The notes below the pieces were generated by a model, which saw only the letters and a list, made by a program, of their open reading frames with translations, did no database searches and was not told where the DNA came from. This document shows positions 32,055 to 36,277 of a stretch of DNA of 64,000 nt, piece after piece. Source of the DNA: Clostridia bacterium (GTDB lineage: Bacteria > Bacillota > Clostridia > Monoglobales > Monoglobaceae). Numbering within the stretch: position 1 is the first letter of the stretch; each line of letters starts with the position of its first letter. The stretch is taken from contig JAGARO010000013.1 of assembly GCA_017622215.1 (NCBI GenBank), positions 1-64,000 of the forward strand, in the 5' to 3' direction. The translations under genes were made by a program, and so were the position numbers.

Positions 32055-32756
32055 TTATTCATCCCTTTCTTTAAGCCAAGATTGTTTTACATACATCTTA
32101 AGAGGAAACAAATTCTCTTCTATTTCCTCTTTTGCTTTATCATAAATTGCATCCCATACTGTTGTCATCTTAATTGGAAGTCCGCTTAACTGAGATACAT
32201 TTTTTGCATATTCCATTGACGAAACAACCGTTTCTACCGTTGTTTCCTCGCCGATATTTGAGTTATTTACTATCCCTGTAAACTTAAGTCCGCAGGCATC
32301 CTCAATCTCTTTCATAATTTCAATTGTGCCCTCGGGAGTGCCTGTCATAAATCTATGCTTATTTATAACAAAAAGCATTTCATAATCATTTTCTTCCAAG
32401 ATTAAAGGAACATATCTGCCAAGTGCCAGCGCTCCTCTGTCGTCTCCGCCAACGTCTAAAACTCCTTTGCAGTCTTTGTCTGCAAAAACTGAATAAGTTT
32501 CAGCGGGCAGGGCAGGAACGTCAACATTTGTGTTTGCATATTCAGAGGAAATAAGCTTAATACCCTTATCCTTAAGGATTTTTTCGCTATCCTTTGTCCT
32601 GAAATACGGATTTACAATATCCAAGTCTGCAATAACAGTTTTATTCCCCAAATCATTTAAGTAAATTGCGTAGTTTACAGCAATATTTGTCTTTCCGCTT
32701 CCGTAATGGCCTGCGAAAACTGTAATTCTTTTGCTTGTTAAATTATTACTGACCAA
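32055..32756 (-). CDS. P-loop ATPase of the MinD/CobQ type, oxidoreductase-linked
   Basis: A 233-residue cytosolic SIMIBI-class ATPase. The Walker A motif is GHYGSGKT (residues 16-23), which lacks the first deviant lysine of true MinD/ParA. ADLDIVNPYFR follows, with VLDVGGDDRGALALGRY as the Walker B/switch region. No cysteine cluster is visible. The start is TTG at 32756 with GAGG upstream, and it overlaps ilvE by 19 bp. Its fixed place directly before the ferredoxin gene suggests a role in assembly, maturation or regulation of the oxidoreductase. That role is inference; I know of no proven function. Confidence 0.8.
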   Translation of the reverse strand: MVSNNLTSKRITVFAGHYGSGKTNIAVNYAIYLNDLGNKTVIADLDIVNPYFRTKDSEKILKDKGIKLISSEYANTNVDVPALPAETYSVFADKDCKGVLDVGGDDRGALALGRYVPLILEENDYEMLFVINKHRFMTGTPEGTIEIMKEIEDACGLKFTGIVNNSNIGEETTVETVVSSMEYAKNVSQLSGLPIKMTTVWDAIYDKAKEEIEENLFPLKMYVKQSWLKERDE

Positions 32757-33802
32757 TTATTCTCATCCTCTATTTTACCTGACTGGATACCTGTGATTGT
32801 ATCGTAGAGTTTCTTACTTAATTCACCGATTTCTTCGTTATTGATAAGCATTACATCATCTACGTATCTGAGCTTTCCAACAGGTGAGATAACTGCGGCT
32901 GTACCTGTGCCCCAGCATTCTTCAAGCTTTCCGTTCTTCTGTGCTTCGATAAGTTCGTCAACTGAAATCTTTCTTTCTTCTACTTCATATCCCCAATCGC
33001 GGCAAAGCTTGAGAACTGAATTTCTAGTAATACCAGGAAGGATACTTCCGTTAAGTGCTGGAGTTAAAACCTTTCCGTCAATCTTGAAGAAGATATTCAT
33101 AGCTCCAACTTCTTCAATATACTTTCTTTCTACACCGTCAAGCCATAATACCTGTGAATATCCGTCGTCGTGTGCCTTAACCTGTGCCTTTAAAGATGCA
33201 GCGTAGTTACCGCCTGTTTTTGCAAAGCCCATACCGCCTTTGACTGCTCTTACATATTCGTCCTCAATCCAGATTCCAACAGGCTTAAGTCCGCTTGCGT
33301 AGTAAGCACCACTTGGAGAAAGGATAATAATAAACTTATATGTCTTAGATGGTGCAACACCTAAAAATGCGTCTGTTGCAATAATAAACGGTCTTATGTA
33401 AAGAGATGTTCCCTCTTCTTCAGGAATCCAGTCTCTGTCAACATCTACAACAGCTTTAACTGCATCTACAAAGTCCTCAACAGGAATCTGTGGGATACAA
33501 AGTCTGTCGTTTGTATCATTTGTTCTCTTTGCGTTCATATCAGGTCTGAAAAGACGGGCTGTGTTATTTTCGCCTCTGTACGCCTTAAGACCTTCAAACA
33601 TTTCCTGTCCGTAGTGGAACACCATTGATGCAGGGGATAATGTAATATCCTGGAACGGTACTATTCTTGCATCATGCCAGCCCTTGCCTTCTGTGTAGTC
33701 CATAACAAACATATGGTCTGTAAAAATCTTACCAAATCCAAGAGCCTCGCCCTTCTTTGGTTTTTCCTTTAATACTGTAGCTTTTTCAATTCTGATTTCC
33801 AT
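32738..33802 (-). CDS. ilvE: Branched-chain amino acid aminotransferase
   Basis: IlvE (354 aa) is a PLP fold type IV enzyme that interconverts Val, Leu and Ile with their 2-oxoacids. Visible blocks are FHYGQEMFEGLKAY, NDTNDRLCIP, GTSLYIRPFI, GNYAASLKAQ with the PLP lysine, KYIEEVGAMN and ECWGTGTAAVISPVG. The gene lies 3 bp after metA and overlaps the ATPase gene. Its linkage to a 2-oxoacid:ferredoxin oxidoreductase fits either fermentation of branched-chain amino acids or their synthesis from branched acyl-CoA. Confidence 0.95.
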   Translation of the reverse strand: MEIRIEKATVLKEKPKKGEALGFGKIFTDHMFVMDYTEGKGWHDARIVPFQDITLSPASMVFHYGQEMFEGLKAYRGENNTARLFRPDMNAKRTNDTNDRLCIPQIPVEDFVDAVKAVVDVDRDWIPEEEGTSLYIRPFIIATDAFLGVAPSKTYKFIIILSPSGAYYASGLKPVGIWIEDEYVRAVKGGMGFAKTGGNYAASLKAQVKAHDDGYSQVLWLDGVERKYIEEVGAMNIFFKIDGKVLTPALNGSILPGITRNSVLKLCRDWGYEVEERKISVDELIEAQKNGKLEECWGTGTAAVISPVGKLRYVDDVMLINNEEIGELSKKLYDTITGIQSGKIEDENNWSVII

Positions 33803-33805
33803 TTT

Positions 33806-34738
33806 TTATTCCTCGCTTTGGTCTTTAATATCGTTTACATTATATGGTGTTGTCTGGTAGACAAAATAATTTAACCAGTTTGTGTAAAGGAGATTTGCAT
33901 GGGCTTTCCATGTGGCAAGTGGCTCCTTTGTGGCATCATCATCAGGAAAATAATTTTCAGGGATATCAGGATTTATTCCTGCGTTCATATCCCTTATATA
34001 TTCCTTTTTAAGTGTGTCGGCGTCATACTCTGAATGGCCTGTAATAAAGAACTGTCTGCCGTTCATTCCCGACACAATATATATTCCAGCCTCTTCCGAA
34101 GAGGACAGAATCTTAAGTTTTGGATTATTTTCAATCTCTTCTCTTAAAACTGTTGTATTTCTGGAATGTGGCACTAAAAATTCATCATCAAAGCCACGGA
34201 GAAGAATTGAATTTTTATAATCTGCTTTATGTTTATAAATACCAGACAGCTTTTTAGGAAGTCTGTACTTTTTCACTCCGTAGTGGTAATACAGACCTGC
34301 CTGCGCTCCCCAGCAAATATGGAATGTGCTTGTTACGTTATGCTTTGTCCACTCCATAATCTCGCAAATCTCTTCCCAATACTCAACCTCTTCAAATTCA
34401 AGAAGTTCAACAGGAGCACCTGTTATAATCATACCGTCAAATTTCTGGTCCTTGACATCATCAAAGGTTTTATAAAAGGCAAGTAAATGCTCCTTTGATG
34501 TGTTCTTGGATTCATAACTCTTGGTTCTTATAAACTCCATTTCAACCTGCAAAGGTGTATTTCCAAGCATTCTTGCAAGCTGGGTCTCTGTATCAATTTT
34601 AAGGGGCATCAGGTTAAGCACCAATATTTTAAGAGGTCTTATGTCCTGTGTAATAGCCCTTGTTTCAGTCATTACGAAAATATTTTCCTGTTCAAGCTGT
34701 TTTACCGCAGGCAATCCGTCCTTGATTTTAATAGGCAT
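33806..34738 (-). CDS. metA: Homoserine O-acetyltransferase (MetA type)
   Basis: MetA (310 aa) activates homoserine for methionine synthesis. The nucleophile is Cys142 in HICWGAQAG, and the His/Glu pair is in [11 protein letters not shown]. Residue 111 is Glu (GAPVELLEF). In characterised MetA proteins Glu here selects acetyl-CoA and Gly selects succinyl-CoA, so the product should be O-acetylhomoserine despite the family name succinyltransferase. This suits the next enzyme in the operon, MetY. It follows metY by 3 bp. Confidence 0.95.
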
Positions 34739-34741
34739 AAA

Positions 34742-36013
34742 TTATACCTCCAATGCCTGTTTAATATCCTCAATAATATCTTCAGCATCCTCAAGTCCAC
34801 ATGAAAATCTTATTAAATCAGGTGAAACTCCGCAGGCAACAAGTTCATCATCGCTGAGCTGTCTGTGAGTTGCACTTGCAGGGTGGAGGCAACATGTCTT
34901 TGAATCTGCTACATGAGTTTCAATTGAAGCAAGTTTAAGATTCTTCATAAACTTTTCTGCTGCAGCTCTTCCGCCCTTTACGCCGAAGCTTACAACTCCG
35001 CAGGAACCGTTTGGAAGATACTTCTTAGCAAGTTCAAAGTCTTCGTCACCCTCTAATTCACAATACTTAACCCATGAAATCTTATCGTTATTTTCAAGGA
35101 ACCTTGCAACCTTCATTGCATTTTCACAATGTCTCTTCATTCTGAGAGAAAGACTTTCAAGTCCTAAGTTAATATAATAAGCGTTCTGCGGAGACTGGAT
35201 TGCACCAAAGTCTCTCATAAGCTGTGCTGTAGCTTTTGTAATAAAGGCACCCTCTAAACCAAAGCGTTCTGTATATGTTACGCCGTGGTAGCTTTCGTCA
35301 GGTGTGCAAAGTCCTGCAAATCTTTCAGGGTACTTTGTCCAGTCAAACTTACCTGAATCAACGATTGCACCGCCTACGCCTGAAGCGTGGCCGTCAATAT
35401 ACTTTGTTGTAGAATGTGTAACAATATCTGCGCCGAATTCAAATGGGCGACAGTTGATTGGTGTAGGGAATGTGTTATCAATAATAAGTGGAACTCCCAT
35501 TTCGTGAGCAACCTTGGCAAACTTTTCAATATCAAGCACCTTAAGTGCAGGGTTTGCAATTGTTTCACCGAAAACAGCCTTTGTATTAGGCTTAAAAGCA
35601 GCCCTGATTTCCTCTTCTGTTGCATCAGGGGAAACGAATGTAAAATCAATTCCCATCTTTCTCATTGTAACATTGAAAAGATTAAAAGTTCCGCCGTAAA
35701 TACTTGTTGATGAGATAACGTGGTCTCCGCAGGATGCAATATTAAAAATTGCAAAGAAGTTTGCAGCCTGACCTGATGATGTGAGCATTGCTGCTGTACC
35801 ACCTTCTAAGTCGCAAATTCTTGCGGCAACTAAATCGTTAGTTGGGTTCTGGAGTCTGGAATAGAAATAGCCTGACGCTTCAAGGTCAAAAAGCTTTCCC
35901 ATATCCTCAGAAGTATCATACTTAAATGTTGTACTCTGGTAAATCGGTATCTGTCTTGGCTCTCCATTCTTTGGACTATAGCCTGACTGTACGCACTTTG
36001 TATCAATTCTCAT
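34742..36013 (-). CDS. metY: O-acetylhomoserine sulfhydrylase
   Basis: MetY (423 aa) is a Cys/Met-metabolism PLP enzyme making homocysteine from O-acetylhomoserine and sulphide. The opening DTKCVQSGYSPKNGEPRQIP with YQSTTF is typical. The PLP lysine is in THSTTKYIDGHASGVGG, and SLRMKRHCENAM is a further family block. I use the ATG at 36013, which has GGAGGG 7 nt upstream; the longer open frame (to 36106) runs through the leader terminator. It is the first enzyme gene of the metY-metA-ilvE-vor operon. Confidence 0.95.
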   Translation of the reverse strand: MRIDTKCVQSGYSPKNGEPRQIPIYQSTTFKYDTSEDMGKLFDLEASGYFYSRLQNPTNDLVAARICDLEGGTAAMLTSSGQAANFFAIFNIASCGDHVISSTSIYGGTFNLFNVTMRKMGIDFTFVSPDATEEEIRAAFKPNTKAVFGETIANPALKVLDIEKFAKVAHEMGVPLIIDNTFPTPINCRPFEFGADIVTHSTTKYIDGHASGVGGAIVDSGKFDWTKYPERFAGLCTPDESYHGVTYTERFGLEGAFITKATAQLMRDFGAIQSPQNAYYINLGLESLSLRMKRHCENAMKVARFLENNDKISWVKYCELEGDEDFELAKKYLPNGSCGVVSFGVKGGRAAAEKFMKNLKLASIETHVADSKTCCLHPASATHRQLSDDELVACGVSPDLIRFSCGLEDAEDIIEDIKQALEV

Positions 36014-36060: not shown

Positions 36061-36091
36061 AAAATAGGCTTACGACGCTATGCCGTAAGCC
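36061..36091 (-). terminator. Leader terminator ahead of metY
   Basis: Stem GGCTTACG/CGTAAGCC (36067-36074 with 36084-36091, loop of 9), followed on the minus strand by a T-rich tract. It lies 31 nt after the leader peptide stop and about 50 nt before metY, so metY expression requires readthrough. Confidence 0.85.
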
Positions 36092-36122
36092 CAATTTTGA
36101 ATACAAAAATCCAAAAATATGC

Positions 36123-36218
36123 TTATTTTACACGACAATCAGCGCTCTTATGCATTCCTTTCTTAAGTAGCATGACAGCGCACATCATATTCACGATAAA
36201 AAAAGCATTTGAAATCAT
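36123..36218 (-). CDS. Met-rich leader peptide or small membrane protein upstream of metY
   Basis: An ATG at 36218 opens a 31-codon frame ending TAA at 36123, with a strong GAGGT ribosome site 6 nt upstream and a consensus promoter about 25 nt ahead. The product contains five Met (positions 1, 11, 12, 16, 22) and two Cys (13, 28). A hydrophobic stretch covers about residues 5-18 (AFFIVNMMCAVMLL), and a basic tail follows with KKGMHK. It precedes a terminator and the methionine genes, so an attenuator peptide is likely. A membrane microprotein is the alternative. The codons around Met16 and Met22 can pair as an RNA hairpin (GCGCT with AGCGC, ATGC with GCAT). Confidence 0.7.
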   Translation of the reverse strand: MISNAFFIVNMMCAVMLLKKGMHKSADCRVK

Positions 36219-36248
36219 ATTCTTACCTCTTTTTGTAAATATGTAGAT

Positions 36249-36277
36249 ATTATATCACTAAAACCCTTATCTGTCAA
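36249..36277 (-). promoter_or_regulatory. Promoter of the leader peptide and metY operon
   Basis: On the minus strand TTGACA (36272-36277), 17 bp and TATAAT (36249-36254), both perfect consensus. The predicted start is near 36242. Confidence 0.9.

Follow-up and report, generated by a model that had tools for sequence, protein, structure and literature searches.

A methionine- and cysteine-rich leader peptide upstream of metY in an uncultured Clostridia bacterium as a probable ribosome-mediated transcription attenuator

The metY-metA-ilvE operon of an uncultured Clostridia bacterium is preceded by a short leader on the same, minus, strand, which very probably acts as a ribosome-mediated transcription attenuator sensing methionine and perhaps cysteine, as judged from comparative sequence data and RNA modelling. 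S-box and T-box RNAs are the textbook control of Firmicute methionine genes, and the leader most likely takes the role usual for an S-box or Met T-box. The evidence consists of the elements of the leader and their conservation, the recurrence of Met/Cys-rich frames before metY in other Clostridia, and RNA pairings that compete with each other in silico. Coordinates refer to the window, the whole stretch of 64,000 nucleotides that was analysed, and all its features described here lie on the minus strand.

The leader sits between an aminotransferase gene (37506-36316), the last of the operon upstream, and the start of metY at 36013. The metY gene, encoding an O-acetylhomoserine sulfhydrylase (34742-36013; TIGR01326, 577 bits against a cut-off of 495), is followed at gaps of a few bases by metA, encoding a homoserine O-acetyltransferase (33806-34738; NF047918, 499 bits, cut-off 460.5), and by the branched-chain aminotransferase gene ilvE (32738-33802; NF009897), the third gene of the apparent operon, 3 nt after metA. 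The match of MetA to an O-acetyltransferase model is in keeping with a MetY of the O-acetylhomoserine type. The operon upstream of the leader had been read from the letters alone as VOR, which was not borne out: it matches indolepyruvate oxidoreductase (IOR; TIGR03336, 760 bits, cut-off 651) and includes an IOR beta subunit. Nor does any evidence support the branched-chain control of the leader that had been considered. A T-box (45078-44840, 124 bits) precedes a sodium/solute symporter gene, an acyl-CoA ligase gene and the IOR operon; its specifier, read by eye from the alignment, is probably UAC, which suggests tyrosine. A lysine riboswitch (29457-29284, 72.8 bits) was found as well, with a diaminopimelate-decarboxylase-like frame at 28320-27031.

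Transcription of the leader can be assigned to a sigma-70 type promoter with an extended -10 element (36249-36277), TTGACA-17-TATAAT, in which 12 of 12 consensus positions are matched at a spacing of 17 and TG precedes the second hexamer; the sequence-only reading had rightly called it perfect. Just upstream, three spaced copies of CGTAAAA (36316-36278), unchanged in the same-genus genome, are a possible operator or UP element. The frame (36123-36218) starts with ATG downstream of the Shine-Dalgarno (SD) sequence GAGG, and its 31 codons encode MISNAFFIVNMMCAVMLLKKGMHKSADCRVK, with Met at positions 1, 11, 12, 16 and 22 and Cys at 13 and 28, which agrees with the strong ribosome site, five Met and two Cys codons described before. 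The leader RNA is strongly folded (z = -5.1 against shuffles), and the hairpin previously placed around codons 13-25 appears in the minimum-free-energy fold at codons 13-26 (36142-36181), where it may be a pause hairpin. The intrinsic terminator described ahead of metY was located at 36065-36093, a stem of 12 pairs (-18.8 kcal/mol) followed by the U tract TTTTTATT.

Met/Cys-rich SD-led short frames are by themselves not rare: there are 483 short SD-led frames in the 64 kb, a handful of them Met/Cys-rich, and one that was checked falls within a gene. What is rare is such a frame directly ahead of a gene start. Under a fixed criterion (an SD, 8-40 codons, at least 3 Met after the start and Met+Cys of at least 18%), such leaders were found in 8 of 114 metY upstream regions and in none (0 of 521) of the regions upstream of other genes in the same loci, and dinucleotide shuffling gave 0.18 leaders on average. 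Fisher p-values were 9e-7, and 1.5e-4 with each lineage counted once, both descriptive since the first examples were already known when the criterion was fixed. The search of related Clostridia proposed earlier yielded Met/Cys-rich SD-led frames before metY in five lineages: the genus of the window; L038 (MNAVSLKNKDMMMCGMMMCHAYFCFR); the L048 clade (MMMLLMCNSKNMLSPCLRMPQRAKA, MMRMCNCKEFLSACSMPFGA and the L185 and L186 peptides, MMKRMCEKKKLFLSLGMPFGA and MMRMCCCEKVSFALCMPFLGRKM); L080/L135 (MMCHMWNMIMLVLAY) together with L134 (MMSNMMMPVSAY); and L088 (MKSLYLNYNMMMCTCAFKN). L185 and L186, which are nearest to the L048 lineage, were added after the criterion results and bear the Met/Cys leader too. 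L038, L048, L090, L185 and L186 likewise have an intrinsic terminator after the frame and ahead of the first gene, and a metA-like frame lies 3' of metY in five of the five loci looked at.

Leaders of different lineages have no common sequence by eye and have the Met/Cys frames alone in common. On a quick metY tree the leader trait requires at least four changes, so that gain or loss was repeated. Within one clade of four species (L184, L185, L186 and L187), codons 1-7 retain their Met/Cys cluster while the remaining peptide varies, and between L134 and L135, whose metY genes are 96% identical, the frame and its Met runs are retained despite a 9-nt length change. Most metY relatives, and with them the remainder of the window's family, are without such a leader: no Met/Cys-rich frames were found in the metY leaders of its family and order relatives, nor in those of the relatives of the L038 genome. 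The metH loci of the leader-bearing genomes have no Met leader, and a MetQ-type lipoprotein is absent from all eight genomes examined. Upstream of metY in L138, L107 and L111, T-box-like ends (GGTACCGCGG) were observed; T-box and leader peptide therefore seem to alternate in that position. In L088 (1-2634 and 2985 onward), symporter and IOR genes likewise stand beside metY-metA, though on the opposite strand, and the two modules may travel together. The metY genes of L083 and L084, on contigs named Spirochaetales and Treponema, are 78% identical to that of the window, compared with about 73% in the window's own family, which suggests transfer or mis-binning.

Within the genus, the 182-nt leader shows 0 differences from that of the closest leader-bearing genome, whereas 18 differences are seen at the 180 fourfold sites of metY (10%) and 6 at 47 positions of the spacer past the terminator; the 79 nt upstream of the promoter differ at one. 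Purifying selection on the leader is thus supported by the comparison, with codon-level and RNA-level selection inseparable because the window peptide is known from two near-identical genomes only.

The sequence-only reading had recognized a difficulty for a classic attenuator, in that the last Met codon lies about 55 nt before the terminator stem and an intermediate pairing or a trans-acting factor is needed. Such a pairing, 36143-36109 with 36102-36077, was found by computed folding. Its 5' part, GCUG AU UGUCGUG at codons 25-30 (36131-36143; GCUG 36143-36140, UGUCGUG 36137-36131), emerged in the fold with the ribosome at codons 13-22, and its inner 5' part (36109-36123) consists of AGC (36123-36121) and UUUUGGAU (36116-36109). 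The 3' partners, AUUCAAAA (36102-36095), GCU (36090-36088), UACGGCA (36087-36081) and UAGC (36080-36077), overlap the 5' arm and loop of the terminator. A ribosome stopped at Met22 would end just short of the antiterminator, and the distance from Met22 to the terminator is accounted for because the pairing starts 12 nt downstream of that codon's first base. The hairpin at codons 13-26 overlaps just the outer antiterminator pairs. Inspection by eye had suggested another pairing, GCGCU..AUGC with the loop of the terminator, but the computed antiterminator was preferred to it.

In the model, the ribosome covers 12 nt from the first base of the A-site codon, the transcript is cut after the terminator loop, and the readout is the probability that RNA upstream sequesters the terminator 5' arm, P(antiterminator). 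For the window leader, this in silico probability is 0.84 with the ribosome anywhere from codon 10 to codon 22 and falls to 0.06 at the stop codon; 2% of shuffles of the intervening RNA attain 0.84; a modelled stall at Cys28, inside the antiterminator, gives 0.49. E. coli trpL, the sole positive control since the terminators of thrL, hisL and leuL were missed by the automatic finder, yields 0.71 with the ribosome at the Trp codons, 0.01 with it at the stop and 0.07 in its absence. These values match how the trp system is known to behave. Window-like behaviour was modelled for L038, L048, L090, L185 and L186, and weakly for L135, while the model fails for L088 and L134 (two of nine leaders). 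Across the L048 clade, the arm of the antiterminator varies together with that of the terminator, through one double change (G-C to A-U) and several one-sided changes. Met and Cys codons occupy permissive positions only marginally above other codons (p 0.01-0.10). The predicted energies are -17.1 kcal/mol for the antiterminator versus -18.8 for the terminator, and on equilibrium folding of the window leader the terminator (0.96) wins at every ribosome position; the switch must therefore be kinetic.

From these observations a mechanism can be proposed, in which the leader would be translated, the ribosome would stall on it, and the choice between the RNA structures would be made kinetically in response to methionine. 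With ample charged tRNA-Met, and probably tRNA-Cys too, the ribosome would reach the stop codon and cover codons 25-31, blocking the 5' part of the antiterminator, so that the terminator would form and transcription end before metY. Under methionine shortage, it would stall before reaching the antiterminator, at Met11, Met12, Cys13, Met16 or Met22; the antiterminator could then form before the 3' arm of the terminator is made, allowing RNA polymerase to read through. The earlier proposal that readthrough depends on how ribosomes behave at Met codons thus gains support from the recurrence, the apparent purifying selection and the well-placed predicted antiterminator.

Methionine attenuators might, more tentatively, form a separate, repeatedly arisen, default-ON variant, in which, without an effective protector hairpin, either stalling or failed initiation would lead to readthrough. 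Attenuators of the trp type shut off when untranslated; in the trp/his type, a protector (1:2) hairpin terminates the untranslated leader, which is not universal among attenuators. Methionine shortage also depletes initiator fMet-tRNA, and therefore a methionine leader may go untranslated. Without a ribosome, readthrough is predicted (0.65-0.96) for the window, L048, L090, L185 and L135, and is not clearly predicted (0.26-0.40) for L038, L186, L088 and L134.

It is rather unlikely that the same leader senses cysteine or general sulfur supply, with the Cys codons setting the stall. Cys codons do occur in most leaders, often within the Met cluster (MMC, MMMC, MCNC, MCCC), and MetY-type enzymes, by the name of TIGR01326, can also make cysteine; however, the L134 peptide contains Met and no Cys, Met codons equal or outnumber Cys codons in nearly every leader, and the position of Cys28 inside the antiterminator would make a stall there less helpful. 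Improbable, too, is a non-ribosomal switch, in which the frame would be incidental and the terminator would be controlled by a protein or by an unrecognised RNA that senses a metabolite or tRNA. Conservation over the full length of the leader and its strong folding would fit such a switch, as would the usual reliance of Firmicutes on S-box and T-box RNAs. However, no relevant Rfam match was found in the leader even at E-values up to 10, nor in the loci of 20 relatives, and other lineages have Met/Cys frames in common with the window and no visible RNA sequence. By covariance-model scan, no SAM-I riboswitch (S-box, RF00162) was detected in the leader or anywhere in the genome, and no T-box (RF00230) in the leader, the nearest of the three in the genome being that at 45078-44840; the reported lack of both RNAs at the leader therefore held. 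Least probable of all is a small functional, perhaps membrane, protein that is expressed from a promoter and terminator of its own and has no part in metY control, which the complete gene-like unit (promoter, SD, frame, terminator), hydrophobic centre and basic tail had brought to mind, but which is rejected because no conserved peptide was found: the frame was found only in the genus, the genome holds no second copy, Pfam gives no match, and peptides at the same position in other lineages differ in all but Met and Cys.

Ribosome-mediated attenuation by methionine supply is thus the preferred reading. In several separate Clostridia lineages it would add another RNA route to the control of methionine biosynthesis, and its recurrence suggests that leader peptides arise repeatedly before the same gene. 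RNA-family searches cannot see leaders of this kind, since these conserve codon content alone and neither sequence nor fold. They also raise the question of attenuation for an amino acid that is needed to start the leader peptide, and the default-ON variant would be the most interesting since methionine shortage also starves initiation.

Leader-peptide attenuators are already known, Firmicutes included; for Firmicute methionine biosynthesis, a methionine leader peptide was not found described in the open-access literature, a scope outside which most subscription papers lie. As is proposed for the window leader, the S-box riboswitch and Met T-box control Firmicute methionine genes by premature termination, but they respond directly to SAM or uncharged tRNA, and neither was found in the window leader. 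In Firmicutes, hisZ/hisS leader peptides replace T-boxes (PMC2965389), and two further reports describe a leucine-rich attenuator peptide of S. aureus (PMC5794164) and the Listeria ilv leader (PMC5864092); all three are cases of Firmicute leader-peptide attenuation, but for His or branched-chain amino acids. In Actinobacteria, Cys leaders precede cys operons (PMC1262725), and the metL leader before metNIQ of Streptomyces lividans is reported to encode a Met-containing peptide, MSTTSDRTPATEATTTPGARCMCRRMCAF, which mixes Met and Cys (PMC8079986). Unlike the window leader, metL belongs to an Actinobacterium and a transporter operon, is leaderless and has no clear intrinsic terminator reported (PMC8079986). 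With E. coli trpL the window leader shares a short frame with codons for the end product, a terminator, a competing antiterminator and modelled position dependence, whereas it uses Met and Cys in place of Trp and has no sequence relation. In the untranslated state, the model predicts trpL to be OFF (P(antiterminator) 0.07) and the window leader to be ON (0.83).
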